35,809 nt of DNA, from assembly GCA_003003615.1 (NCBI GenBank), contig PVWD01000033.1, positions 1 to 35,809 of the forward strand. Direction: 5' to 3'. Both the position numbers and the translations under genes were made by a program. Below, in pieces: positions 14,561-33,588 of the stretch. How positions within the stretch are numbered: the stretch's first letter is position 1; each line of letters starts with the position of its first letter. This DNA comes from a filamentous cyanobacterium CCP2. GTDB taxonomy: Bacteria; Cyanobacteriota; Cyanobacteriia; Elainellales; Elainellaceae. The notes below the pieces were generated by a model that had not been told where the DNA came from, searched no databases, and saw only the letters and a program-made list of their open reading frames with translations.

Positions 14561-15469
14561 ATGCAAACTTCACGCATTGCACTTCATCCGGATGGCTTAA
14601 CTTGCTCAAGATTGATTTGGGGCGTTTGGCGATTGGCAGAATGGAATATTTCTACGACAGAATTGCGATCGTTTATTGATACCTGCCTGGAACTGGGTAT
14701 CACTACATTTGACCATGCTGATATTTATGGTGAATATACTTGTGAGAGCCTATTTGGAGAAGCTCTAAAGACAAATTCCTATCTGCGCGATCGAATGCAG
14801 TTAGTCAGCAAATACGGCATTAAACTTGTTTCACCAAACCGTCCTGAACATACGCTCAAACATTATGATACGAGCCAGCAACACCTCCTTGCTTCAGTAG
14901 AGAATTCTCTTCAAAACCTACAGACCGATCGCCTAGATTTGCTGTTGATTCACCGCCCTGATCCCTTCATGAATGCGGATGAAGTGGCAGAAGCATTTAC
15001 AAAGCTCAGACAAGCTGGCAAAGTTTTGTACTTTGGCGTGTCGAACTTTACGCCGAGCCAGTTTGACTTATTGGCATCCCGCTTAGATTTTCCGTTAATT
15101 ACCAATCAAATTGAACTATCTGTAATGCATCTGACTCCCTTTGAAGACGGCACTTTGGAGCAGTGTCAAAGATTACGGATTGCTCCAATGGCGTGGTCGC
15201 CCCTTGGCGGAGGGGAACTCTTCTCTGGTGAAACGCCGAAAGTAATCCGGTTACGTCAAGCTTTAGAGGTGATCGCTCAAGAACTCAACGCAACGATCGA
15301 CCAGATCGCCTTGGCGTGGCTGCTAGCTCATCCGGTGAACATTGTGCCAATCTTAGGTTCTGGAAATCTCGATCGGATTCGATCGGCGGTTGGGGCAGAG
15401 AGATTCCATCTTCCCCGTGTGGAGTGGGTTACAATTTTGATCGCTTCTACAGGAGTGCCAGTCCCCTAG
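14561..15469 (+). CDS. Aldo/keto reductase, YdhF-like
   Basis: A 302-aa NADPH-dependent (beta/alpha)8 oxidoreductase. The catalytic tetrad of the superfamily is complete: D51 and Y56 (F-D-H-A-D-I-Y-G), K84 (V-S-K-Y-G-I) and H131 (L-L-L-I-H-R-P-D). The tail carries the cofactor segment V-P-I-L-G-S-G-N-L-D-R-I. F-D-H-A-D-I-Y-G and the closing A-S-T-G-V-P-V-P match the YdhF group (COG4989). Substrate unknown; the group reduces small carbonyls. There is no strong ribosome site before the ATG. It converges on the GT4 gene: the two stop codons share the palindromic CTAG at 15466-15469, so there is no room for a separate terminator. Confidence 0.93.
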   Translation: MQTSRIALHPDGLTCSRLIWGVWRLAEWNISTTELRSFIDTCLELGITTFDHADIYGEYTCESLFGEALKTNSYLRDRMQLVSKYGIKLVSPNRPEHTLKHYDTSQQHLLASVENSLQNLQTDRLDLLLIHRPDPFMNADEVAEAFTKLRQAGKVLYFGVSNFTPSQFDLLASRLDFPLITNQIELSVMHLTPFEDGTLEQCQRLRIAPMAWSPLGGGELFSGETPKVIRLRQALEVIAQELNATIDQIALAWLLAHPVNIVPILGSGNLDRIRSAVGAERFHLPRVEWVTILIASTGVPVP

Positions 15470-16824
15470 GGTTTTGAGCGTTGGTTTTGAGCGTTGACAT
15501 AAGGTTTCCAGTCAACTTGTTCTTGCAAAAGAAACTGACGGAGCTGTAAGCCGATCGCCTTCAAAGAAAAACATTCTTCTGCCCGTTTTCGAGCATTTTG
15601 CCCCATTTCATACTGGAGATCTGGATCATCTAAAACTTGTCCGATCGCCGTTGCGAGGGCTTTAGAATCTTCGCGAGGAACAACAATACCACCTGCGGAC
15701 TTTCCGCCTGCCAGAATATCAGGAATACCAGGAGCCGCTGTCGCCACAACGGGTAGCCCACAGGCCATCGCCTCAATCGGAGCAACCGGAAATCCTTCAT
15801 GACGAGACGGTAGTGTGTATAAATTTGCCGCTGCTAAATACTGACAAATCAGGTTTCGATCGCGCACATATTCATCAATCCATTTCACATGTTGAATCTG
15901 TTTTTCAGCAATGAGTTGGTGGAGCTTTTGAGAATCGTTGCCCGTGCCAATTAAGATTAGCTGGAGAGGTTGATGAGGCCGATCGCGGTAAACTTTTTGC
16001 CAAGCCTCCATCAAAATATCCAGACCTTTACGATACAGGTCAATTCGCCCGTGATAGATGACCACCTGAGCCTCAAGCGGAATTCCCAGCATCTGACGAG
16101 CCGAGGTTTGATTGGGCGGTTGCCAGCTTTCAACATCCATTGGATTAAAGATTTGGGCAATTTTCTTTGCTGGGATGCCGTACTGCTGCTGCACTCGCTG
16201 AATTTCCGTTTGAGTGGCAATAATTAACCCGGCACATTCCTTCAAGGCGATCGGTCGTAGCGGACGCTCTAAGCGGCTCAGTTGAAAATCTCCTCCCTGA
16301 AAGGTGGCAAAAACAGGAATTCCCAAAGAACGTCCTAGCATGACGCACACATCAAACCGGGCGTATTCATATTCCTGACAGAGGATAGCCTGCACATTTT
16401 CTCGTTGCAATTCCTGCCGTAATTGTGCCAGTGGCGTTGCCAAATAAGGCGCAACATCGCGAACCAGAGAATACCAAAAATGACGAATACCTTGAACCTC
16501 TCCAAAAACATCCTTTGTCGTCCATCCGTAGGGATCAATCATGGAGCGACGAATGGTGTGATAAATTTTAGGACAAGGCAGAACACAAATCGTTATGTCT
16601 GTGGGTTGATGCTTGTATCGTTTTACTTCAGTTGTTTGTCGTGAAATACAAAAAAGCACAACTCGGACATTGGCTAAACGTAATGCATCAATGTAACCAA
16701 AGAGCCAACCGCCTGTCATTTCGTTGCAGAATGACTCGAAACTGACTGCGATCGAATCTAGAAAATCTTCAATCGCATCTCCCCAATGTAAAAGGGCGAT
16801 CGAGGGTTGGGAAAAAGTATTCAT
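15466..16824 (-). CDS. GT4-family glycosyltransferase
   Basis: A 452-aa cytoplasmic, GT-B fold retaining transferase. The C-terminal half has V-V-I-Y-H-G-R-I-D-L-Y-R-K-G-L-D-I-L and the EX7E donor-site motif H-E-G-F-P-V-A-P-I-E-A-M (glutamates near 341 and 349), followed by G-L-P-V-V-A-T and G-x-V-V-P. The N-terminal acceptor half is variable. It is the last gene of the minus-strand polysaccharide cluster, 42 bp after the GT39-like gene. The extreme C-terminus is altered by a 13-bp tandem duplication (15470-15495), which repeats the codons before the stop in a new frame. Confidence 0.92.
   Translation of the reverse strand: MNTFSQPSIALLHWGDAIEDFLDSIAVSFESFCNEMTGGWLFGYIDALRLANVRVVLFCISRQTTEVKRYKHQPTDITICVLPCPKIYHTIRRSMIDPYGWTTKDVFGEVQGIRHFWYSLVRDVAPYLATPLAQLRQELQRENVQAILCQEYEYARFDVCVMLGRSLGIPVFATFQGGDFQLSRLERPLRPIALKECAGLIIATQTEIQRVQQQYGIPAKKIAQIFNPMDVESWQPPNQTSARQMLGIPLEAQVVIYHGRIDLYRKGLDILMEAWQKVYRDRPHQPLQLILIGTGNDSQKLHQLIAEKQIQHVKWIDEYVRDRNLICQYLAAANLYTLPSRHEGFPVAPIEAMACGLPVVATAAPGIPDILAGGKSAGGIVVPREDSKALATAIGQVLDDPDLQYEMGQNARKRAEECFSLKAIGLQLRQFLLQEQVDWKPYVNAQNQRSKP
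15470..15495. repeat. 13-bp tandem duplication at GT4 gene end
   Basis: GGTTTTGAGCGTT occurs twice without a gap (15470-15482, 15483-15495) in the last codons of the GT4 gene. The unit is not a multiple of three, so the last residues before the stop are in a shifted frame. Confidence 0.85.
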
Positions 16825-16866: not shown

Positions 16867-18573
16867 TTAAAGATGTTTCTTTAAAACAAAAATATTACCT
16901 TCCCCCCAGGGTATCCATCGTCTGAAAGGATATCGAGCAATTTCGTCATACCCGTCTACTGAATTGAGCGCAACGACATAATCATCACGATCGACCCAAT
17001 ACCAACTCTTTTCTGGTTCTTCATTCCAATCATCATAATCTTCGCGGTACAGGTACCAGGCATTAAATTCAAATCCGCCATCGATAAGATTCGGAGAGAT
17101 TCCTTGATCCTGAACAAGATGATTGAGTGCATCCCAACGAGCACGATTCCAGGTGAGGGAGTCTCGCGTTGCAGCAACTGTGAACCCGCCATAAAGTAAA
17201 AGGATACTCAATGAAAAGGCAACTATTTTTCGATTGGTAAACCATTGATTTACACCACGACTAACCAGAACCGCCATCATCATGAGCGGCGGCAAAAGGA
17301 ATAGCAAATAGCGATCGTAGAAACCAAAGGCACTCAATCCTAAAAGGCATAAGGGAAGTAAGTAGACGACTGTAATGGTAAGACTGAGGATAAGAATCGG
17401 CAGATAAAATGATGATCGAAAATTGTAATAATTACTCAAGATAATGGAAATTGCAAGACAAAAGTTATGTACCAGGAGCGTCGCACCAATTACCCCGATC
17501 GCAGTTATCATCATCCAGAAAAACGGGGGAGCTTTTGCCCATTCACTATCTTTCAAAATGTGAACACCCACTCCCAAATCAACCAGAATATTTCCATGCA
17601 ATGGCATGAGACGCTGCTTGGAAATGAGCGTACTTAGAACAATAAAAATGATAGTTGATAAAACTGAAAGGCTGAAGATACGATGTTGTAAGGATAAGTT
17701 TTTTAATCGAGTTACCAGTGAGAGGAGCAAAAACGGAAACAGGAATACTCCCAAATAGACAAGGGCGTAGAGTGCGATCGTCGTGAAATTAATTGCCGTA
17801 TTTCTTAAGCCTTGAGAAACTTCTTGAACTAGTGTGTTGATTTGATTACCATACTTAGCTGGAGCACGTAACGTAATCTCCAACCAAAACTGGTAAGTGA
17901 GCTGGATAATAACCCCTAAAGCAGTAGGAGCAAAGCCAACTACAACCGTTCGCAGACTCAACCCCTTCTTAAGGATATATGCAATGCCAAAACCAAATGG
18001 CAGAATTAAGCCAAGTTGTCTGGACAGAAGCGCAACATACGAAACCAGAATACCGATGATGCAATCAAAAGATGAATCTTGCCTAAGTCCCCGCACGAGG
18101 AAATAAAGAGCGACGATCGCAAAGCCAAAGAAGGGCACATCATTCATGAAAGAATGGGCAAGTGAGAAATAGATGGGATTTAGCGCAACAACCAAAGCTG
18201 CAAAAAAGGACAGAGGTCGGCTAAGATTCACTTCTCTCAGCAAACCATAGGTGGCTAAAATCCCAGCTAATCCCAACGTTAGCGTTGAAAACCTCAGAGC
18301 CGTAAACGAAAAGCCGAAAGGCAGACAAAATAACGTGCCCCACAAAACCTGAGTGAGTAGATTTGTGGCTGTCCAGTCTGAAAACTGAAAATCTCCTGTT
18401 TCCAAAAGCTCCCTGACGCTAAAAGCATACGCCCAATCATCATTGATGGGGAATTCGCCGATCGGATTGACAATCAAGATCAAAATTCCCCAGATGGCAC
18501 TAATCGCAAAGAGCCAGGGAAGTTCGTCTTGCAGATCTTTTATCTCTAATTTAATCCCTTTCATAGACAACAT
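16867..18573 (-). CDS. GT39/ArnT-like membrane glycosyltransferase
   Basis: A 568-aa integral membrane protein with roughly ten or more hydrophobic helices. The first external loop holds the conserved acidic pair (I-N-D-D-W-A-Y-A-F-S-V-R-E-L-L-E-T-G near residues 41-57), typical of GT-C enzymes of the PMT/ArnT/Dpm-dependent kind that transfer a sugar from polyprenyl phosphate. After the last helix comes a short soluble tail (Y-L-Y-R-E-D-Y-D-D-W, then R-Y-P-F-R-R-W-I-P-W-G). The start is uncertain between 18573 and an ATG three codons later (18564). It lies 42 bp before the GT4 gene and 148 bp after the GT87-like gene. A donor is plausibly made by the MT-GT2 fusion at 20913-22421. Confidence 0.85.
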   Translation of the reverse strand: MLSMKGIKLEIKDLQDELPWLFAISAIWGILILIVNPIGEFPINDDWAYAFSVRELLETGDFQFSDWTATNLLTQVLWGTLFCLPFGFSFTALRFSTLTLGLAGILATYGLLREVNLSRPLSFFAALVVALNPIYFSLAHSFMNDVPFFGFAIVALYFLVRGLRQDSSFDCIIGILVSYVALLSRQLGLILPFGFGIAYILKKGLSLRTVVVGFAPTALGVIIQLTYQFWLEITLRAPAKYGNQINTLVQEVSQGLRNTAINFTTIALYALVYLGVFLFPFLLLSLVTRLKNLSLQHRIFSLSVLSTIIFIVLSTLISKQRLMPLHGNILVDLGVGVHILKDSEWAKAPPFFWMMITAIGVIGATLLVHNFCLAISIILSNYYNFRSSFYLPILILSLTITVVYLLPLCLLGLSAFGFYDRYLLFLLPPLMMMAVLVSRGVNQWFTNRKIVAFSLSILLLYGGFTVAATRDSLTWNRARWDALNHLVQDQGISPNLIDGGFEFNAWYLYREDYDDWNEEPEKSWYWVDRDDYVVALNSVDGYDEIARYPFRRWIPWGEGNIFVLKKHL

Positions 18574-18721: not shown

Positions 18722-20089
18722 TTATGAATGATTTTTTACCTCTATTGACGAATTTAGAGATGAAGAGGATGACTCATTTTTCTTTTGAACCACTTGCTGG
18801 GGAAATATCCAGCGCGGTAATGTTACGAACAACATGTATGTAAGGAAAAATAAAAGCACCCAATTATTGAATTGATCAAAATACATTACTACTCTTTCCC
18901 AACGGCTTGGTTCCCAATTTCCGATCATCTTGATCCACATTGTCAGAATGATACTGAATAGTGTTAAGGTTGACAGCCTACTTAGTGAACTCTCCGTTTT
19001 TATCCAAAAAAGAATTTGAGGAATTGTAAAAATTAAAAATATTAAGCGATAAGCCCAATTATTGCCAAAAAGTAAAAATGTTCCAATATAAATCATTGCT
19101 CCTACTCTAAATGCATCAATAACCCCTTCCTCAACATCAACTTTTGCAGAACCCGGAGGTAAAGCCCAATGCAGAAACCTCATCCCCCTCTTGGAACTCA
19201 GGAGCAGCAGAGCCAAACACAGCACTACTAGTCCCACCTTGAGGAAGCTTATCCTGCCAAGCAAAAATTCTTTTTGGAGCAAGCTCAAAATAACCCTATA
19301 GCCATAAGACCAGAAGTCTTCCTTTAAAGTTGCGCTGCTAATTAACTGGATGTCATTAAGATTTACGATTAAATAGAAAGTAAAAATTCCCACAACTAAG
19401 GAAAATAAAATTAGAAATTTTTTTCGTCTTTCCCTAATAAAAGCTACTGATGCAAGAATTGGAAATATCTTGAGAAATGCAGAAAACAGGATTAATGAAC
19501 TGGAAAACAAAAGCCGTTTTTTAAGTTGACTATTCAAAATTAGAAGGGATGCTGCTAAAAATGTAAAAATAATTAGATCGTTATTACCTCGCTCTATCCC
19601 CAGCATTACTGCTGGAGAACATAGGATAAGTGTATACACTGCGGCTTCAGCATAATTTATTCTCTGTATAATGAGAAGAGTTGATATGAAAAATAGAAAT
19701 CCAAAAATGACACCTATTAAGGCAGTTTGCTCTTGATCAATGCCAAGATTGGCTAGAGCTAGCCAAATTTTAGGATAGTTCATCGGCATAGGTGGCACAT
19801 ATGGATCGCAGGGATTATCAATGCGCGGTTCATAACCTAGCCTGTAGCATTCATATCCAGATGTGATCACTCGTAAATCTCGAAATGAAGGCCACATTTT
19901 GGGAACCCCCGGAAAAACCCACCAAGGATGATTCCATTGTTCTGATTCATGGGAGAAGAATGCTTTGGCAAAGATAGGTAAGAAATACGATATCAGAGGA
20001 ACGAGCAACAGAACCCGTCCATCTATCCATGTCTTTCTGTTCAGATGAGAAATAAAATGGAAGTAAGCGATTCGCACAATATGCATCAT
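18722..20089 (-). CDS. GT87-like (DUF2029) membrane glycosyltransferase
   Basis: A 455-aa protein with about ten hydrophobic helices. The external loop after helix 1 reads R-D-L-R-V-I-T-S-G-Y-E-C-Y-R-L-G, then P-P-M-P-M-N-Y-P-K-I-W-L; later comes G-I-E-R-G-N-N-D-L-I-I-F. These resemble DUF2029/GT87 enzymes, such as polyprenyl-phosphate mannosyltransferases, in position and hydropathy. The exact donor is unknown. The gene is AT-rich and contains no CGATCG, unlike most of the window. AGG precedes the ATG at 20089 by 5 bases. It is followed, 46 bp upstream, by the FkbM gene on the same strand. Confidence 0.78.
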   Translation of the reverse strand: MMHIVRIAYFHFISHLNRKTWIDGRVLLLVPLISYFLPIFAKAFFSHESEQWNHPWWVFPGVPKMWPSFRDLRVITSGYECYRLGYEPRIDNPCDPYVPPMPMNYPKIWLALANLGIDQEQTALIGVIFGFLFFISTLLIIQRINYAEAAVYTLILCSPAVMLGIERGNNDLIIFTFLAASLLILNSQLKKRLLFSSSLILFSAFLKIFPILASVAFIRERRKKFLILFSLVVGIFTFYLIVNLNDIQLISSATLKEDFWSYGYRVILSLLQKEFLLGRISFLKVGLVVLCLALLLLSSKRGMRFLHWALPPGSAKVDVEEGVIDAFRVGAMIYIGTFLLFGNNWAYRLIFLIFTIPQILFWIKTESSLSRLSTLTLFSIILTMWIKMIGNWEPSRWERVVMYFDQFNNWVLLFFLTYMLFVTLPRWIFPQQVVQKKNESSSSSLNSSIEVKNHS

Positions 20090-20135: not shown

Positions 20136-20849
20136 CTACAAGGATGTATTGACAAAAATGAAGTTTGTGCAGGTGGTATGAACCAGCCGATAGGGAAGCT
20201 TTTCAAAGAATGCTTTAATTCTGTTAGCATCATTATCAAGCCCAAATGTGTAATATTCTATGATTACAACCTTAGGTTTATGTTTCTCGTAATCTAATGT
20301 TTTCCAAACATCAATCTCAGATCCTTCAACATCAATATCTAATAGATCAATTTGACCAATTCGGTGTTTTTGTAAAATTGTCTCAAGGTGATAAGAAGGA
20401 ACCTTAATAACTTCCTTTAAAGGAACACGAAAATAACCCTTTTCTGCTTGTTCAACCGTGCTTGAGTAACTGGGAAAATAAGACTGGGCAAATTCAACTT
20501 TTCCTTCTTGCGACGAAATAGCAGCCCACTCAACAGTTGCTCTTTCTTGTTGCAAAAGCTCACATTGAGTGGGATCAGCATCTATGCAGATACCTGTCCA
20601 GCCATTTTTCTCAAAAAAGTAAGTATTCGACAGATATGTAGGATGCCCTGCCCCTACATCGACAAAAACGCCCTTTGCTGGAAGATCAATATTTTTATAA
20701 ATATATCTATCTTCGCCGAACTGGGAATGGAACCTCGGATATTCAACAGATCCACTGTTCAACTTAAACAAACTATTCCTTAGGCTATTAATCTGCCGTT
20801 TAGTTACAGATTCAACAACTTTAGTCCACTTAATGCCCTGGGAATTCAT
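20136..20849 (-). CDS. FkbM-family methyltransferase
   Basis: A 237-aa SAM-dependent methyltransferase. Motifs: S-Q-F-G-E-D-R-Y-I-Y, the SAM loop V-F-V-D-V-G-A-G-H-P-T-Y-L-S-N-T, acidic strand-2 residue in C-I-D-A-D-P, and L-L-D-I-D-V-E-G-S-E, all characteristic of FkbM. These proteins usually O-methylate sugars or polyketides. I set the start at the ATG at 20849 because GGAGAAGG lies eight bases before it; ATGs further out (20867) give 6 more residues. AT-rich, without CGATCG. Part of the polysaccharide cluster, 42-46 bp from its neighbours. Confidence 0.88.
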   Translation of the reverse strand: MNSQGIKWTKVVESVTKRQINSLRNSLFKLNSGSVEYPRFHSQFGEDRYIYKNIDLPAKGVFVDVGAGHPTYLSNTYFFEKNGWTGICIDADPTQCELLQQERATVEWAAISSQEGKVEFAQSYFPSYSSTVEQAEKGYFRVPLKEVIKVPSYHLETILQKHRIGQIDLLDIDVEGSEIDVWKTLDYEKHKPKVVIIEYYTFGLDNDANRIKAFFEKLPYRLVHTTCTNFIFVNTSL

Positions 20850-20912
20850 CGTAGAAACCTTCTCCATCAAGTTTATTCATCAGGAAATACTACAACATAA
20901 ACTTACGTTGCC

Positions 20913-22421
20913 TCACCTTTTCTTCTTATGACTAAAAACACGCTTTACCCAAAGTCGAAACAAAACTTGCCAGTAACCTCCACCAACTTTTATCAAGCGA
21001 AATGAGGAGATTCCCATGTCTGGAGTACGGTTGATCCAGGAAACTGCCACTTCCCTGACGGTGTAACCCATCAGTAGAGGTAAAAGACCTGTCTCAGCAT
21101 TAATCGCAAAACCTGACTGGGTTAACTCTAAGCTTTCATATACCTCCCGTCGCATTAACTTAAGGTTATTTGTTAAGTCACGAAACTTTTTCCAAAACAG
21201 TATCCGTGCTAAAGCATGAAAACCTCGATTGACAATGATTTTTTGAATAGGATAGTTAAGTAGAACGCTATGGCGAGAGAAACGGCTTCCCACAACCACA
21301 TCGTAGCCATCGGCAGCAGCATCGAACAAATCTCTAATCTCAGGTAGCAGATGTTGAAAATCGCAATCCATCGAGAGGATATAACGACCTGTTGCTGCCT
21401 TGTATCCATCCTGCAAGGCTCGCCCTACTCCATTGGGTGGAGTTCTGTAGATTGGTTTGATCAAGCTATCCTCGTTTGCTAGGCGGGCTATCACTTCACG
21501 GGTGCCGTCACGGCTGTTGTCATCTACTAGAATGATCTCCCAGAGATATTTACCAAAGTGTGTTTTTAATCGTGCAATCAATGGCTCAATGTTCATCTCC
21601 TCGTTGTGGCAAGGAATCACAACGGAAATCGCATTATAGAATTGCTCATGATTACAAAGTGAAACTGAAGGGCGTTCTACGCTACGGGGCGGTTTCTGAG
21701 CATGAATTAAAATGACACCTGCCAAGGTTTTGATACCGGGTGTATTTTCTAGCAAGATTGATAAGTTTCGCAGCAACCAAATCAAATCGCGGGTGAGTGG
21801 AGTGTAAACGAAGTCGTGGAAGGTTGCAAATACGCGAATAAATCCAAGTTCAGAAATGAGTTCGTAGAGTTCGGGACGATTAAGCAGTTTGCGCGGATCT
21901 TTTTTACCAAAAATTTGCAAGAATGCTCGCCGCATTTTCAGTGCAATGTTCCAGGGATTACTTTCGTAAAAAAGAACCTGTCCACCCGGTTTGAGTAGAT
22001 CATAAACTTGTTGAAGAAACCAAGCGCAGTTCCGCTTGTCCATTAAGTCTACTGCAACAATAAAATCAAATTGCCTACCTGCTAGATCAGTTAATAGCGA
22101 TCGACTATTAACAAACTCAACTGAATCTGATAGATCGATCGGTTTAGAATGATTAGAAAAGGTGACAGCAGTGATCGGATTTTCGTGACGTGAAACACGC
22201 AATAGCTGTTGAGTAAAAAATCCTTGACCACAACCGAGTTCTAAAATGGTTTGACCAGGTAGCAAATGCACCATATGGCGAAAAGACTGTGCCCTCCAGA
22301 GTAATCGATCGCTGTAAATTGGATCGCGTTCTTTTAGATATTGATCCCGGAAGTTTTCTCGTATACCAAGAATGCTTTCAAAACATGAATCTTGTTTAAG
22401 ATTAGGAATTGATTGAACCAT
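20913..22421 (-). CDS. Fused SAM methyltransferase and DPM1-like GT2
   Basis: A 502-aa two-domain protein. Residues about 1-240 are a class I methyltransferase (T-I-L-E-L-G-C-G-Q-G-F-F-T near 60, F-D-F-I-V-A-V-D-L-M, L-K-P-G-G-Q-V-L-F-Y-E). Residues about 265-490 are a GT2 domain: I-S-V-V-I-P-C-H-N-E-E-M-N-I, I-I-L-V-D-D-N-S-R-D-G-T, L-S-M-D-C-D-F-Q-H (DxD) and G-S-R-F-S, a pattern of polyprenyl- or dolichyl-phosphate sugar synthases. No C-terminal membrane helices are seen (the end is basic, V-K-R-V-F-S-H-K-K-K-R), so a partner would be needed at the membrane; the GtrA gene lies just upstream. The start ATG at 22421 has only a weak ribosome site. Confidence 0.88.
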   Translation of the reverse strand: MVQSIPNLKQDSCFESILGIRENFRDQYLKERDPIYSDRLLWRAQSFRHMVHLLPGQTILELGCGQGFFTQQLLRVSRHENPITAVTFSNHSKPIDLSDSVEFVNSRSLLTDLAGRQFDFIVAVDLMDKRNCAWFLQQVYDLLKPGGQVLFYESNPWNIALKMRRAFLQIFGKKDPRKLLNRPELYELISELGFIRVFATFHDFVYTPLTRDLIWLLRNLSILLENTPGIKTLAGVILIHAQKPPRSVERPSVSLCNHEQFYNAISVVIPCHNEEMNIEPLIARLKTHFGKYLWEIILVDDNSRDGTREVIARLANEDSLIKPIYRTPPNGVGRALQDGYKAATGRYILSMDCDFQHLLPEIRDLFDAAADGYDVVVGSRFSRHSVLLNYPIQKIIVNRGFHALARILFWKKFRDLTNNLKLMRREVYESLELTQSGFAINAETGLLPLLMGYTVREVAVSWINRTPDMGISSFRLIKVGGGYWQVLFRLWVKRVFSHKKKR

Positions 22422-22570
22422 AGTAATCGCCCCAACTCATCTGTATCGTTAACTATAAAATTTCTTTGTACACCACTGTTTTTCAATCGGATGTTAGATT
22501 CGAAATCTTTATCTCCTTCAACTTAGTTTACAAGCTTGAAAATTGCTCGTGCTTAACATTTTTCTGTTTT

Positions 22571-22987
22571 CTACCTCGATTTAAACACAACTCGATCGTT
22601 GACAGTGTAATTGAATCCAGAACCAACAATGATTCCAACTAAGGTATTAGCCACATAGTGAAGTCCTAACCAATCTAGAATTGGAAACAATAGAAAACTA
22701 CGAATGACAATTGCAGCCGCACAAGACAGATGATAGAGAGGGACTTCTCGCCTAAGCATTTGCTTTAGGTTCCATTGTGGGCTTGACCAAACCCAAAGGC
22801 GATAAACTAAGAAACTAAAAAACACAGAAATTTCAATTGAAACTACGTTAGCCAGGTTGCGATGCAATGATTCTTCAAGGTCAAGCGACTCAATCAGCCC
22901 AGCAATTAAAACGACATTGAAAACAGCCGTAATTGCTCCGAAAAATAGAAAACGAATAATACGATTTTGATAGAACTTTTTCAACAT
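22571..22987 (-). CDS. GtrA-family membrane protein
   Basis: A 138-aa protein with four hydrophobic helices. It starts with I-I-R-F-L-F-F-G-A-I-T-A-V-F-N-V-V-L and has F-x-x-Y-R-L-W-V-W near the middle; it ends with a conserved N-Y-T-V-N-D-R-V-V-F-K-S-R. That is the usual GtrA signature. GtrA-type proteins are thought to flip or anchor polyprenyl-phosphate-linked sugars; GtrA in phage gtrABC operons works with a GtrB GT2 and a specific GT-C. Here a GT2 (in the fusion), 149 bp downstream, and two GT-C genes follow it. Confidence 0.9.
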   Translation of the reverse strand: MLKKFYQNRIIRFLFFGAITAVFNVVLIAGLIESLDLEESLHRNLANVVSIEISVFFSFLVYRLWVWSSPQWNLKQMLRREVPLYHLSCAAAIVIRSFLLFPILDWLGLHYVANTLVGIIVGSGFNYTVNDRVVFKSR

Positions 22988-23037: not shown

Positions 23038-24102
23038 TTATATCCATCGCTGAACATTTTGAGTGTAAATTTCCTTCAAAATGTCTGTGACTGAGTAGGT
23101 TAGTTCCCAACTGGGATAGTGATGCTTGAATTTGTGAATGTTGCTAATCCACCAGATGTGATCACCAATGCGATTTGACTCAACATACTTCCAGTCCAAC
23201 TTTTTGCCAGCGATCGCCTCACAATGTTGAATGGCTTCGAGCATTGAGCAATGACTGAAACGACTACCGCCAATGTTGTATACTTCTGCAACTCTAGGAG
23301 CCTGATAGAAGTGGTAAAATGCATTCACTAAATCGTGGCTATGAATGTTGTCGCGCACCTGCTTACCCTGATAACCAAAAACCTGATAAGGAGTGCTTGT
23401 CATGGTGCATTTCATCAAGTAAGACAAAAAGCCGTGCAGCTTTGTCCCAGAATGACCTGGCCCCGTCAAACAGCCACCCCGAAAAATACCTGTCTTGATG
23501 TTGAAATAGCGACCATATTCTTGAACCAACACATCGGCTGCTACTTTAGATGCCCCAAACAGAGAGTGTTTAGTCTGATCAATACTCATTGATTCATTAA
23601 TTCCCTCTTGGTAAGGATGGGGCGAGTCAATTTCCCAGCGTGTCTCCTGTTCAATTAGCGGTAAATTGTTTGGAGTATCACCATAGACTTTGTTTGTAGA
23701 ACAGAAGATGAAAACAGCATTTGGACAATGCTGACGAGTATTTTCCAGGAGAACTAGAGTTCCATTGGCATTAACTGAGAAATCCATGTGAGGGTCGTTT
23801 GCAGCCCAGTCGTGGGAAGGTTGAGCGGCAGCATGGATGATTAGATGAATATCGCTGCTGTATTCCTGAAAAATAGTGGTAATCGCTGCTTGATCTCGAA
23901 TATCGACGGATTTATGAATATAGCGATCCCCATAGTCCTGCAAAAGTCGATCGCGGTTCCATTCGGTTGATGCATCATCACCAAAAAACACACGGCGCAA
24001 ATCATTGTCAATGCCTACTACGGTATAGCCTCGATCGCAAAAAAAGCGTACCGATTCTGAACCAATAAGCCCTGCTGAGCCTGTTACTAAAATAATTGGC
24101 AT
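23038..24102 (-). CDS. CDP-paratose-2-epimerase-like extended SDR
   Basis: A 354-aa NAD(P)-dependent nucleotide-sugar enzyme. I set the start at the ATG at 24102 ([14 protein letters not shown], the Rossmann glycine motif, with GGAT ahead); a longer frame would overlap the next gene and is unsupported. The phrases [36 protein letters not shown], and G-K-Q-V-R-D-N-I-H resemble CDP-tyvelose/paratose epimerases and relatives. The catalytic YxxxK position reads F-G-A-S-K: Phe replaces Tyr. The exact sugar is not known. Confidence 0.85.
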
Positions 24103-24170
24103 ATCTATCCGTTTTGTGGGTGAATGATCAAAATAAAAAATTAAAATAAGGAAAATCAATTTATCTCTAG

Positions 24171-24911
24171 TTAATCGATCTTTTGCCAAAGGGATGCTGT
24201 TTCTGTGCCCCAAAGATGAGCAGGTTGAGTGTAGTAACCCAGCCATTTCAACGGGCTAAAAAATGTGTACAGAACCTCCTTTCTGCGAGGGGAAAGCTTG
24301 GAGAAGGAAACATCGTGAGTCAGAATTGTTAATTGATTAATAAAGGTGGCAGTTTTTACGCACGGTAAATTGATTAGAGCCTTTAACTCATCTAATGTAT
24401 AACCTCGCCGGACATGCCCCCACTCCGCCATGATTTCGGATTCGCTTGGGCAGTAGGGCTTCATAAAGCTGTAATAGGGAAACCGCCAATTTTCGTTCGG
24501 TGTGCTGACTAAAAGAAACCCATTTGGCTTTAAAACTCTTAGTGCTTCAGAAATTGCCTGCTTGTGATCAGGAACATGTTCCAGAAGATCAAACATCGTT
24601 ACTGCATCAAACGATCGATCTTCAAAGGGCAGATGAGTGGCATCTCCACAAACAAACTGCACTTGTTTTTGTTGATTACATGCAGCGTTTGCATATTCAG
24701 CATTGAGATCAACATTGACAATTTTCGCCTGGGGATACAGTAAAGCGGTTAAACCACTTTGTCCTCCTCCAACTTCCAAAATATTCGTAAAGGATTTTTC
24801 TGGAGCGATCGAATGAATAGCCCGCATCTTTTCCCGGTAAAAGAAACCCTGAGTATAAGGTTGGGGAAATGGATTGCTAGAAAGAAATTGGTTGAGTTTT
24901 TGTTTATTCAT
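24171..24911 (-). CDS. Class I SAM methyltransferase
   Basis: A 246-aa protein. The SAM loop [12 protein letters not shown], the acidic residue in [20 protein letters not shown], and [15 protein letters not shown] place it in Methyltransf_11. Probably methylates a sugar or lipid-linked intermediate in this cluster (context). AAAGGA lies about 13 bases before the ATG. It follows the next methyltransferase gene by 18 bp, so the two are probably co-transcribed. Confidence 0.87.
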
Positions 24912-25840: not shown

Positions 25841-27127
25841 TCATCTTCGAGAAAAATAGAAACCAATGCCTGAAAAACAACCAAAAATCTCTGTGATGAG
25901 GGTCATATTTCTGCCCTTAAAACCTTTGATCAATGCATTCCAGAGCAGCCTACTGTAATATCTTGGCAAAGCCACAAAGAGCCGACGAAGATTTCCCCAA
26001 TGATGATATTTAGCAAACTGAATCAGTAAAGCAGTGACATGTCCACGCATATATTGAAATGACTGTTCCTGTAGGTGCTCTAACTCTTTTCGGTGATAGT
26101 GAAACACAACAGCGGCAGGTTCATAGCGGCAGTGCCATCCCTCAGCCAGAATGCGATACCACAGTTCTGAATCTTCGCTACAGCCGGATGCACCTGCCCC
26201 CAAGCGTTCATCAAACAGTCCAATCTTATTAAAAACTTCTCTGCGGAAGGCCATATTTGCACCTGCCCCTACAAACCAAGCCGGAACGCCAAAGGGTTTC
26301 ATTGCTTCAAAAAACTCAGAATCAAACACCAAAGCGCGATATTTCCAGCCTGGCCCACCTACGCCTCTGTGAAAAATTAGCTGGGCTTCACTGTCCAATT
26401 CCGCAGGAAGCATGAGTCCAGTGACTGCCATCACCCTCGGATCGTGAAAACCTTGTTGCAGTCGAAAAATCCAATCTGGATGTACTTCTACATCATCATC
26501 CGTAAAGGCAATCAGGTCTCCAACGGACGCTTGAATGCCTGTGTTGCGCGCAATACTTAATCCTGGCTGTGGCTCTAAAAGATAGCGTACTGCTGGAAAC
26601 TGAGCCACAACGTTTTTGGTGGCATCGGATGAAGGAGCGTTATCAACCACAAGAATTTCAGTGGGTTGATGGTGTAGGTTTTGCAGAGAGCGCAGACAAT
26701 GCTGTAATTGCTCTGGACGATCGCGAGTGCAGATGATCACTGAAACGCTGCTTTGAGGCGGGATTTGGATTTGTTCTAGCTGTTGAGATAGCTTTTGCAG
26801 TGGGTTTTGGAGGGAAATAAGGGCTGAATAAGCAGGCGGAAAATCTTGAGGTAATTGCGCTTTTGTAACGGGTAAACTTGCTTTGAATCCATGTTCTAGC
26901 AATCGATCGCCCACGGGCAGGGTAATTGCTGGCAGAATTTGCTGGGTTAGCTGTGCCGGAGATAGAGGCGAATTCTGGGTGAGAATTTCTAGTGCCCCTA
27001 GAGGAATGCGGTGCCACCAAACCACCAAAAAGATACCCTGATATCTACCATCTGGCAGCAGTTCTGGAATGCCTTCGCTAAGTTCTAAGTTCAATACCTT
27101 GTATGGTCGAAACGGAGTGGCTTTCAT
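25841..27127 (-). CDS. GT2 glycosyltransferase with N-terminal extension
   Basis: A 428-aa inverting transferase. I placed the start at the ATG at 27127: GAGG lies five to seven bases ahead and the gap to the previous gene is then 7 bp; an upstream frame would overlap it. An about 110-residue N-terminal domain precedes the GT2 core: V-S-V-I-I-C-T-R-D-R-P-E-Q-L, E-I-L-V-V-D-N-A-P-S-S-D, Q-P-G-L-S-I-A-R-N-T-G-I, A-F-T-D-D-D-V-E-V-H (DDD donor site), and later a G-A-N-M-A-F-R-R-E-V-F segment. Its neighbour at 27135-28361 is a clear paralogue with the same layout. Confidence 0.92.
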   Translation of the reverse strand: MKATPFRPYKVLNLELSEGIPELLPDGRYQGIFLVVWWHRIPLGALEILTQNSPLSPAQLTQQILPAITLPVGDRLLEHGFKASLPVTKAQLPQDFPPAYSALISLQNPLQKLSQQLEQIQIPPQSSVSVIICTRDRPEQLQHCLRSLQNLHHQPTEILVVDNAPSSDATKNVVAQFPAVRYLLEPQPGLSIARNTGIQASVGDLIAFTDDDVEVHPDWIFRLQQGFHDPRVMAVTGLMLPAELDSEAQLIFHRGVGGPGWKYRALVFDSEFFEAMKPFGVPAWFVGAGANMAFRREVFNKIGLFDERLGAGASGCSEDSELWYRILAEGWHCRYEPAAVVFHYHRKELEHLQEQSFQYMRGHVTALLIQFAKYHHWGNLRRLFVALPRYYSRLLWNALIKGFKGRNMTLITEIFGCFSGIGFYFSRR

Positions 27128-27134
27128 AGGTTCC

Positions 27135-28361
27135 TCAAGAAAATTGCTTACGAATTTGCTCAACTCGCTTTTGCGATCGACCATATTCACCAAACAAACC
27201 CACAATTCCACCCCATATTTCTGCCCAAACCAGGGCTGGAGGGGAAGGATTCCGTCCGCGAAGGCTCTGTTTTAAATTGTGATACTGGTACTTAAACCAC
27301 CATTTAATCAGCCAACGTAACCGAGATCGTTGTAGTGGATCAGTGTGATAGGACTTCACAACAAATGCCATAAACCCTAACCCCCAGCTCCAATACTGAC
27401 GGCGTAGCTTATCGTATTCTCGTCGATGCTCATGAAAGACCAGATATTGCGGCTCATAAACCAGGGAATATTCTGCCCGAATCACGCGGTAAAAAATGTC
27501 TAAATCTCCTCCTCCTGGCAATGGGGAACCAGTATCCAGAGCTTCATCAAAACCACCCAGATGCAATAGAACATCTCGACGAAATGCCATGTTGCATCCT
27601 GCTCCAAAAATACCTGCTCCACAGGGATAAAGCGGATTTCCAGGCAATGTTTTTCCGTAGCGAATTTTTTCAAATCCTCGACGAAATCCGCCACGTCGCT
27701 CAAACAAAATCTGAGCATCTGTTACGAGTTCGTAGGGCAGCACCAGTCCTGTGAAGGCGGCTGCATCGGGGTTTTCTTGCCATGCTTCCACCAGCCCATC
27801 AAACCAGTGGCGATCGACCACAACATCATCATCTAAAAATGCCAGAAGTTCTGTCTTCGTTTCTTGAATGGCTCGATTGCGGGCAAAGTCTAAACCCGGT
27901 TTTGGCTCTTGAACGTAGCAAACTTGCGATAAGGAAGCCACCAAATTCTGAGTGCGATCGTTTGAAGGGGCATTATCAACCACAAGAATTTGAAATTGGG
28001 GAGGACGATCGCCTCTGGGCTGTTGGAGTTTGAGTAATGCCTTTAAGCAGCGATCGACATTATCAGGACGATCTTTGGTACAAATTGCAACCGTTAAAGA
28101 CGGGAAAGATAAATGTCCTTGAACAGATGGAAGTAATTCCTCGCGGATGTTTTCTTGAAGCAGTTTAGTCTTCAAATCTTGAACGATCCACTCCGATAAC
28201 ATATCGGGACACAGAATAGTGCCTTCTGAATAGCTACGCATCAAGAAGCCGATCGCTCTCCCCTTCCGCCTCAGCAAAAAAGCAAATCCAGTTTCACCGG
28301 ACTTGAGAACAAGTTTCGGTAAAGGTTCAGTCACCTCAATTTCAACAATTCTATATGTCAT
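27135..28361 (-). CDS. GT2 glycosyltransferase, paralogue of its neighbour
   Basis: A 408-aa transferase with the same order as the gene after it: an N-terminal domain (about 1-105), then L-T-V-A-I-C-T-K-D-R-P-D-N-V, Q-I-L-V-V-D-N-A-P-S-N-D, K-P-G-L-D-F-A-R-N-R-A-I, L-A-F-L-D-D-D-V-V-V, and G-A-G-C-N-M-A-F-R-R-D-V. The pair (7 bp apart) looks like a tandem duplication followed by divergence. Its stop is near the next start, its own start is 17 bp after the ABC exporter stop. Acceptor unknown. Confidence 0.92.
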   Translation of the reverse strand: MTYRIVEIEVTEPLPKLVLKSGETGFAFLLRRKGRAIGFLMRSYSEGTILCPDMLSEWIVQDLKTKLLQENIREELLPSVQGHLSFPSLTVAICTKDRPDNVDRCLKALLKLQQPRGDRPPQFQILVVDNAPSNDRTQNLVASLSQVCYVQEPKPGLDFARNRAIQETKTELLAFLDDDVVVDRHWFDGLVEAWQENPDAAAFTGLVLPYELVTDAQILFERRGGFRRGFEKIRYGKTLPGNPLYPCGAGIFGAGCNMAFRRDVLLHLGGFDEALDTGSPLPGGGDLDIFYRVIRAEYSLVYEPQYLVFHEHRREYDKLRRQYWSWGLGFMAFVVKSYHTDPLQRSRLRWLIKWWFKYQYHNLKQSLRGRNPSPPALVWAEIWGGIVGLFGEYGRSQKRVEQIRKQFS

Positions 28362-32019: not shown

Positions 32020-33588
32020 TCACTGGATTAGATGAACAGTTTGGTTTTTTGTAGGAGATGATGAATGGACAAGAAGGCCTACGCCTGCGATCGTCCCACC
32101 TGTGATTGCCATACCAAGCAAAAGAGATGCCAAGTTAAACTCTCTTCCACTCTTGAGCGACAGTAACACCTCCAACGCAATGGGAATCAGCAACACACTT
32201 TCAATGATTAACACTGCGGAATAGGCAATACCACGCCTAGTGAGAGCAACAATTATTCCAATAAAAATGCCGAGAGGCACAAAGAAAAGACTGTAATAAA
32301 GAGCCTTACAAACAATCAAACTAGAATTCTTTAGCTGCTCAAGCGGCAACAGCTTTTGAAAGAGAACAAGACCTGGATTTAACTCAAACGAAGTTTGATT
32401 CTCTAGCTGATCAATATAAAACCGCAATACAGAGCGATCGTAGGTGATGATTAAATGATGAGGATCTGCATCTGTAAAAACATCAGGGATCACCAGTTCA
32501 GGCCTTGTTCCCTTCTCTCCAGTCACAGATGTTCGTAGCCAAAAGATCAGATTTTCACCATACTGAGCAAGGGCGAGATTACGGCGATCGGTGGATTGAT
32601 TAGAAAGTGAAACGATTGGAACAGATTGAGTTTGCTTCACATCATCAGTGGCTAGAATCACGCTCAAAGTGAATTGGGAGGTTTGGCTCAAGCGTTGATT
32701 AATGAATGAAGCGGGAGCCTCTGTTTCTAGCCAGTGATTTGCATTCACGCTGCTAGTAATGTTGTCTTTGGGCGTAGTAATACCTCGCCAAACGAGTTTT
32801 GGAGAATTCCCCGTGATGTCAGGATAGCTGTCATGATATGAAGCTAGTGAATAGGAAGCCACCACAGATTTTGACAATGGATTAATCAAACTTTTTTCTA
32901 CAAACGCTTGTCTTACCTGATCCTCTGAAGCAGCCTGATCAGCAATAGCAAGGTTGGAAATATTTCCATGCCAAGGTTTCCCAGTTGCTTCATCATTTCC
33001 GACAAGTAATGGATAAACAGGTGTCCAATTGCTAAAACTGATGACCGTTTGCAGCCCGATTGAAACTAAAAAAATAAGAAGAAGGTAGCCGATCAGAACT
33101 AGAGATATATTTTGGATGGGTAAATCAGCAATTCTTCTTGTGTGCGTTTGCATCGATAAAATTATGTCAGAAACAATCGTATGCCCCAGGTAGTTGAAGC
33201 ACTGCATCCCTAAAATACTACCGACCGTATTGGCATAAATATCTGTGGAACTGGGTATTCGTGAAGGGAGAAATAGCTGCAAGATTTCAACAGCAGTTGA
33301 TAAGCTAAAGGCAACTAAAATGATGCAGACAAGTTGAAATAATTTGCTAATTTTTCGAGTTTGCAACCAAGCCGCTAAGCTAAAACCGAGTGGAACGTAC
33401 AGTAAAAGGTTGACTATCCAGTCATCTAACGAACTTCGATGCCTAAACTTACCAATGATTTCCAGAAAGGATTGATCTTCCTCAAAGGCAAAGTTGAAGG
33501 GTGCCAGTGTTAAAATAACTATTGTCAAGAGACTAATGATGCATATTCCAGTCGTCCATTGCTTTCGAGATAGGCTTGAGTTAGTCAT
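32020..33588 (-). CDS. VanZ-like membrane protein with LamG-like domain
   Basis: A 522-aa protein. Residues about 10-140 are VanZ-like, with hydrophobic helices and the charged S-L-D-D-W-I-V-N-L-L-L-Y-V-P-L-G-F-S plus E-I-L-Q-L-F-L-P-S-R, D-I-Y-A-N-T-V-G-S. A helix near 155-175 leads to a concanavalin/LamG-like beta domain (about 185-400: G-N-I-S-N-L-A-I-A-D, then H-L-I-I-T-Y-D-R-S, L-R-F-Y-I-D). Three or so C-terminal helices close the protein. VanZ-LamG fusions are seen with cyanobacterial exopolysaccharide loci; the lectin-like part could bind glycan outside the membrane. Exact role unknown. Confidence 0.82.
   Translation of the reverse strand: MTNSSLSRKQWTTGICIISLLTIVILTLAPFNFAFEEDQSFLEIIGKFRHRSSLDDWIVNLLLYVPLGFSLAAWLQTRKISKLFQLVCIILVAFSLSTAVEILQLFLPSRIPSSTDIYANTVGSILGMQCFNYLGHTIVSDIILSMQTHTRRIADLPIQNISLVLIGYLLLIFLVSIGLQTVISFSNWTPVYPLLVGNDEATGKPWHGNISNLAIADQAASEDQVRQAFVEKSLINPLSKSVVASYSLASYHDSYPDITGNSPKLVWRGITTPKDNITSSVNANHWLETEAPASFINQRLSQTSQFTLSVILATDDVKQTQSVPIVSLSNQSTDRRNLALAQYGENLIFWLRTSVTGEKGTRPELVIPDVFTDADPHHLIITYDRSVLRFYIDQLENQTSFELNPGLVLFQKLLPLEQLKNSSLIVCKALYYSLFFVPLGIFIGIIVALTRRGIAYSAVLIIESVLLIPIALEVLLSLKSGREFNLASLLLGMAITGGTIAGVGLLVHSSSPTKNQTVHLIQ

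Follow-up and report, generated by a model that had tools for sequence, protein, structure and literature searches.

A gene for a 502-aa protein, in which a methyltransferase (MT)-like domain is joined to a putative DPMS-type GT2 glycosyltransferase domain, was found to belong to a real family of MT-GT2 fusions, the constant partner of which is not GtrA but a short-chain dehydrogenase resembling CDP-tyvelose 2-epimerase (F-SDR). On the basis of domain content, fold match, conserved residues, gene order and co-occurrence, the fusion is probably the cytoplasmic DPMS-like synthase of a surface-glycan decoration module, with GtrA as its membrane partner, feeding GT-C enzymes. The window (the whole stretch of DNA analysed, 35,809 nucleotides from the filamentous cyanobacterium CCP2) was rich in glycosyltransferase genes. 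On its minus strand, the genes ran in the order SDR, GtrA, fusion, FkbM, GT87-like, PMT_2-type GT-C and GT4, separated by gaps of 42-149 bp, as follows:

23038..24102, minus strand: F-SDR, CDP-tyvelose-2-epimerase-like short-chain dehydrogenase, 354 aa, start ATG at 24102
22571..22987, minus strand: GtrA family protein, 138 aa, 3-4 membrane helices, PF04138 E 2.1e-16
20913..22421, minus strand: fusion protein of MT-like domain and putative DPMS-type GT2, 502 aa
21672..22370, minus strand: MT-like half of the fusion, residues 18-250, motif I ELGCG kept, beta-2 acid missing (T87)
20925..21638, minus strand: GT2 half of the fusion, residues 262-499, DPMS-like, C-terminal amphipathic helix 476-499
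20136..20870, minus strand: FkbM-family methyltransferase, 244 aa, PF05050 E 2e-19, between the fusion and the GT-C genes
18722..20089, minus strand: probable GT-C, GT87-like below cut-off, 455 aa, about 11 hydrophobic segments
16867..18573, minus strand: GT-C of PMT_2 type, 568 aa, first-loop NDDW motif
15466..16824, minus strand: GT4 glycosyltransferase, a neighbour with no role assigned, terminating the same-strand gene run

The start of the F-SDR gene was placed at 24102, as the mechanically called ORF (23038-24246) begins too early. The gene lies directly upstream of GtrA and belongs to the module, although it had been omitted from the first-pass annotation of this DNA. That annotation had described a GtrA gene followed on the same strand by a 502-aa MT-GT2 fusion, and both were confirmed, with the ORFs at the positions listed here and the former matching PF04138. 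The fusion gene starts 149 bp downstream of GtrA, and no unusual RNA fold was found in the gap between them, nor any Rfam family in the window.

To both halves of the fusion a Pfam domain was assigned, Methyltransf_23/25 at residues 55-194 (above cut-off) and Glycos_transf_2 at residues 266-430 (E 5.5e-32), and the frame contained no internal stop. A scan of species-representative genomes yielded 47 full-length or near-full-length relatives (41-75% identity), and one further fusion (76% identity) was found on a plasmid of Gloeothece PCC 7822, where the NCBI label of the protein is only 'glycosyltransferase'. The resulting 48 relatives (41-76% identity) were spread over about nine phyla, namely Cyanobacteriota, Bacteroidota, Nitrospirota, Chloroflexota, Acidobacteriota, Gemmatimonadota, Rokubacteria, Fibrobacterota and Proteobacteria, and the MT and GT2 domains occupied one frame in 49/49 loci, window included. 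As the window frame is free of internal stops and the same architecture recurs in 48 other loci, the fusion is neither a product of chance nor of a sequencing error; the possibility, raised in the first-pass annotation, that the two halves are in truth separate genes affected by such an error was thereby excluded. Among cyanobacteria the gene is rare, since, at the limits used, no orthologue was found in 40 relatives or in another 385 genomes from the phylum, a search that returned distant unfused GT2s only, and its being a common cyanobacterial gene was ruled out. A phage-borne gtr cassette was also ruled out, as phage and viral collections gave no full-length relative of the fusion and only GT2 pieces (25-42%). 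In the fusion tree most phyla clustered, with some interleaving (for example, a Chloroflexota row within Bacteroidota, 97/75), which is compatible with lateral spread but is no proof of it. Literature searches returned no usable paper on the fusion or on methylated polyprenyl-phosphate sugars. In the genome of Nostocales cyanobacterium HT-58-2, two complete copies of the F-SDR, GtrA and fusion module were observed (L015 and L016).

The GT2 half had been proposed to be DPM1-like, and this was supported by fold and profile alike. In the AlphaFold model of the fusion (46 rows; pLDDT 87.7, pTM 0.87), the GT2 half matched the DPMS of P. furiosus (5mlz) with a Z of 25.6 and an rmsd of 2.4 Å over 227 residues at 30% identity (Foldseek, 1.4e-15), with ArnC and GtrB next in the fold comparison (Z about 22). 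In profile matching, DPMS (E 2.2e-29) was likewise ahead of GtrB (E 1.1e-17). Residues D352 and D354 (the DxD pair), R380, D415 and R465 were invariant in the 46 fusion rows; the DxD aspartates, R380 and R465 align with DPMS positions, and catalytic or acceptor-binding roles have been described for the matching positions of DPMS and GtrB (PMC4728340, PMC5526996). Read from motif order, D415 may be the counterpart of D157, the proposed catalytic aspartate of GtrB (PMC4728340). The absence of membrane helices from the fusion, also proposed previously, was borne out in that no transmembrane-type hydrophobic segment was found, and in the AlphaFold model the GT2 chain terminates in a helix (476-499) at the site of the DPMS/GtrB interface helix. 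The fused GT2s formed a clade apart from every unfused GT2 of 242 cyanobacterial genomes (442 vs at most 160 bits). In type II DPMS the catalytic chain is helix-free and depends on small membrane subunits; in type III the enzyme includes a membrane domain of four helices (PMC5526996). Pfam places this domain together with GtrA (PF04138, 'GtrA/DPMS, transmembrane domain'). Sequence and model together indicate that the GT2 half is a DPMS-type polyisoprenyl-phosphate glycosyltransferase.

A GtrA gene was located near the fusion in 9/11 cyanobacterial and 3/3 Rhodobacteraceae loci and in 0/35 other loci. The cyanobacterial genes were upstream of the fusion on the same strand, either adjoining it or with one to two genes between, and those of Rhodobacteraceae lay between F-SDR and the fusion in 3/3 loci; the order F-SDR, GtrA, fusion, multi-membrane-spanning protein was seen in L013, L039, L041 and L043. 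As fusion genomes that contain GtrA hold only 1-4 copies of it, this adjacency is not due to chance. It is therefore very unlikely that GtrA and the fusion have nothing to do with each other beyond lying in the same large glycan gene cluster. The abundance of glycosyltransferase genes in the window and the lack of GtrA beside the fusion in most other phyla could be cited for that explanation, but it does not account for 12 loci, from two phyla, in which so scarce a gene lies close to the fusion, in each case upstream and on the same strand. Furthermore, in 9/17 of the nearest unfused cyanobacterial GT2s, GtrA preceded the GT2 within one chain, and with about half of these relatives fused to GtrA in this way, the GT2-GtrA partnership is well grounded. 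GtrA was, however, missing near the fusion in 37/49 loci, and no GtrA gene was found anywhere in 8/26 fusion genomes, so that GtrA does not define the module and appears from its distribution to be a lineage-specific membrane partner of the fusion.

The description of the locus as a reorganised gtr module was accordingly upheld only in part: GtrA adjoins the fusion in cyanobacteria and Rhodobacteraceae and GT-C genes are nearby, but GtrA is absent from most loci and the synthase is DPMS-like. A classical gtrABC-type cassette, in which GtrA, GT2 and GT-C would be obligate partners and the MT merely built in, is considered unlikely. Although GtrA adjacency in two unrelated lineages and the GT-C genes downstream would be expected of such a cassette, eight fusion genomes without any GtrA, a synthase lacking the two transmembrane helices of GtrB, and a constant partner, F-SDR, that is absent from gtr cassettes as described (PMC11127046) would not.

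The family nearest to F-SDR was CDP-tyvelose 2-epimerase, matched over the whole length (E 2.6e-51). In 34/49 loci, many of which are on short contigs, the fusion had an F-SDR orthologue no more than about 6 kb away. Of the fusion genomes examined, 26/26 contained F-SDR, usually in one copy, compared with 50/242 genomes of the class (Fisher p 5e-6, calculated for 8 cyanobacterial fusion genomes). The protein keeps the TGxxGxxG motif, the Thr, Asn and Lys of the TNK segment and the Lys of YxxxK; the family Tyr of YxxxK, however, was Phe230 in 27/27 aligned F-SDRs (HSLFGASK), whereas it was present in the neighbouring Y-type SDRs. In TaTyvE the corresponding Tyr164 is the probable general base (PMC13098431). 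Compared with CDP-tyvelose 2-epimerase (TyvE; 1orr, 9rl0; PMC13098431), F-SDR therefore shares the whole-length match, the TNK segment and the glycine motif, but differs in having Phe for Tyr164 in all 27 aligned sequences and PSHD in place of the VAM segment. A related module without the MT domain was observed in five cyanobacterial loci (L135, L137, L138, L139 and L140) and one of Fibrobacteria (L133), in which F-SDR is accompanied by a DPMS-like GT2, often fused behind GtrA, and by a second TyvE-like SDR with a normal YxxxK. As F-SDR also accompanies unfused DPMS-like enzymes, its action would seem to be on the sugar of this pathway. A second F-SDR was noted in the genome from which the window derives (G000:C68:17348-18406, L134), adjoining a 2131-aa frame with an FkbM match.

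The MT half adopted a class I MT fold over residues 13-246 and matched CmoM with a Z of 18.8 over 225 residues, in a structural match list that was filled by the GT2 domain and in which rows for the MT half were scarce. Motif I was retained, with E61, G63 and G65 of E61-x-G63-x-G65 conserved in 45-46 of 46 rows; W42, R48, H52, N155, D203 and E225 of the pocket were invariant or nearly so in the 46 rows, and the ESNPWN segment was strongly conserved. In class I MTs, an acid at the end of beta-2 normally holds the SAM ribose. At this position (87) the 46 rows had T35 V6 S3 R2 and never D or E, and with the Gloeothece fusion (T) included the acid was missing in all 47 sequences, whereas it was D or E in the nearest unfused MTs and in the aligned solved MTs. 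The MT half was also the faster-diverging of the two (mean identity 59% vs 68% for the GT2 half), its identity being as low as 31-35% within the Acidobacteriota clade. The full SAM motif was present in the unfused MTs nearest to it (L063-L065). Two of these, in L064 and L065, adjoin GT2 proteins of 425-434 aa, and the GT2 protein of L065 carries an MT-like part at its own N-terminus, so that it may be a second MT-GT2 fusion of independent origin.

From the conserved residues it would appear either that the MT half binds SAM differently or that it serves a different purpose. As the half is kept in every relative together with an invariant pocket, it may well act on the same sugar or carrier complex. 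Methylation of a sugar is the single most likely role, at a little under an even chance, and a role other than methylation must be given a considerable, somewhat smaller share. The earlier suggestion that the fusion may methylate the polyprenyl-linked sugar was unsupported in the form in which it was made and, with the beta-2 SAM acid absent, stays a possibility. Thus, an ordinary SAM-dependent O-methyltransferase acting on a polyprenyl-linked (or nucleotide) sugar during its synthesis, such that the module would deliver a methylated sugar to the outside, is a doubtful reading: the CmoM-like class I fold, the retained motif I and pocket, and the unfused relatives in L063-L065 with the full SAM motif, two of them next to GT2-containing genes, speak for it, but T, V, S or R replaces the acid in 46/46 rows where unfused and solved MTs have D or E. 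Conversely, the MT half may have lost methyl transfer and persist as a structural or sugar-binding part, for example in docking F-SDR or closing the acceptor site. This is held to be equally doubtful, for although loss of the acid in every relative and the faster divergence, most marked in the Acidobacteriota clade, are in its favour, motif I and ESNPWN are kept more strongly than a dead cofactor site would predict.

The first-pass annotation had further named two GT-C enzymes following the fusion. The protein encoded at 16867-18573 matched PMT_2 above the cut-off (31.3 bits vs 26.1), but the match of the 18722-20089 protein to GT87 was below the Pfam cut-off (21.4 vs 25 bits), and the FkbM gene, which that annotation had passed over, intervenes between the fusion and both. 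This FkbM methyltransferase was not conserved beside other fusions, and its gene (20136-20870) may therefore serve a separate methylation step. A neighbour was counted as a multi-membrane-spanning protein if it was 380 aa or longer, had no fewer than five hydrophobic segments and lay at most two genes from the fusion; such a protein was found in 40/45 loci. The partner itself varied, with six or more families represented. PMT_2 was matched by 15/43 membrane neighbours; a 13-member family with a DE first-loop motif occurred beside the fusion in cyanobacteria and Bacteroidota, and a seven-member family was common to cyanobacteria, Bacteroidota, Chloroflexota and Rhodobacteraceae. Relatives of the PMT_2-type (NDDW) family of the window lay near the fusion in L013, L017, L042 and L053, and weak GT87-like matches were obtained in L050 and L052. 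An AlphaFold model of the PMT_2-type protein, built from four sequences, was too poor (pLDDT 48) to add evidence. Two candidates were rejected: the downstream protein of Nitrospira as a GT-C, this being a cellulose-synthase-like GT2 (five Nitrospirota cases), and a 455-aa neighbour in Gloeothece as an orthologue of the GT87-like protein of the window. Given the recurrence of GT-C-like families on the one hand and the cellulose-synthase-like GT2 of Nitrospirota on the other, a GT-C step is likely in most, not all, members of the module.

Taken as the DPMS-like synthase of a surface-glycan decoration module, the fusion may be placed in the following scheme, in which substrate, direction of transfer, docking on GtrA and activity of the MT half are what we infer. 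F-SDR would supply or alter the sugar, which the GT2 half would load from a nucleotide-sugar donor onto polyprenyl phosphate on the cytoplasmic side of the membrane. The fusion, itself devoid of membrane helices, would dock through its C-terminal amphipathic helix and, in cyanobacteria and Rhodobacteraceae, also on a separate four-helix GtrA, which would take the part of the DPMS/GtrA transmembrane domain as anchor and possibly flippase. The MT half would modify or hold the sugar, and a GT-C enzyme (here the PMT_2-type 16867-18573 and GT87-like 18722-20089 proteins) would pass the sugar from its lipid carrier to an extracytoplasmic acceptor. The module would thus represent a DPMS/gtr-like route in a new arrangement. 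Weighing against this explanation are the loci and genomes without GtrA, the varied membrane partner, an F-SDR without its Tyr and an MT half without the beta-2 acid. The last two are strictly conserved alterations of active sites, and it is conceivable, as an outside chance, that the MT-like domain lacking the SAM-ribose acid and the TyvE-like SDR lacking Tyr form one machine, which together with the DPMS-type synthase would build a sugar of an undescribed kind and modify it on the lipid carrier, in a module present in about nine phyla.

Like DPMS type III (P. furiosus, 5mlz; PMC5526996), the fusion has a GT-A catalytic domain with DxD, acceptor arginine and C-terminal interface helix, and its four-helix membrane partner is of the same Pfam family, PF04138; unlike DPMS type III, the membrane part is a separate GtrA gene or absent, and an MT-like domain is present at the N-terminus. 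The GtrA/GtrB/Gtr(type) cassette of O-antigen glucosylation resembles the locus in having GtrA, polyisoprenyl-phosphate GT2 and GT-C genes side by side. However, GtrB, as known from Synechocystis sll0501 (PMC4728340), has two C-terminal transmembrane helices where the fusion, closer to DPMS, has none, and the cassette lacks the extra MT domain and the F-SDR partner and differs in that GtrA is not constant here. In GtcA/CsbB-type teichoic acid glycosylation (PMC7389260), a GtrA-family protein is likewise required alongside a C55-P-sugar synthase and an extracellular glycosyltransferase, but with neither MT fusion nor SDR, and whether the GtrA-family protein acts as flippase or anchor is debated (PMC7389260). 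The three-component pentofuranose systems (Kelly et al. 2024, PMC11127046) also share a lipid-linked sugar, an SDR epimerase in the cluster and GT-C transfer on the outside, and, of the published systems whose cluster includes an epimerase, are the nearest analogy, although the synthase is different: they employ a PRPP-using synthase, an SDR that keeps YxxxK and a GT136 GT-C, whereas a GT2 and an SDR without Tyr are found here (PMC11127046).

Conservation of the fusion extends from cyanobacteria to Bacteroidota, Nitrospirota, Acidobacteriota and alphaproteobacteria. As a rule, a stand-alone synthase produces the lipid-linked sugar donor. A synthase with a built-in MT-like domain points to a sugar that is perhaps modified at the carrier stage, and a donor of this kind would be new to surface-glycan chemistry. 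F-SDR, as a recurring partner, provides a concrete handle on a module of three or four genes. Moreover, a helix-less DPMS-type enzyme with a separate GtrA offers a bacterial test case for the dispute over GtrA as anchor or flippase (PMC7389260).

Two further features of the window were recorded outside the module. At 25841-28361 on the minus strand, two similar GT2 genes lie in tandem, their mechanical ORFs overlapping by 77 bp, and the GTG start of the downstream gene is probably placed too early. At 32020-33588, also on the minus strand, a VanZ-like domain is joined to a laminin-G-like lectin domain (Pfam VanZ 1.5e-13, Laminin_G_3 1.1e-9).
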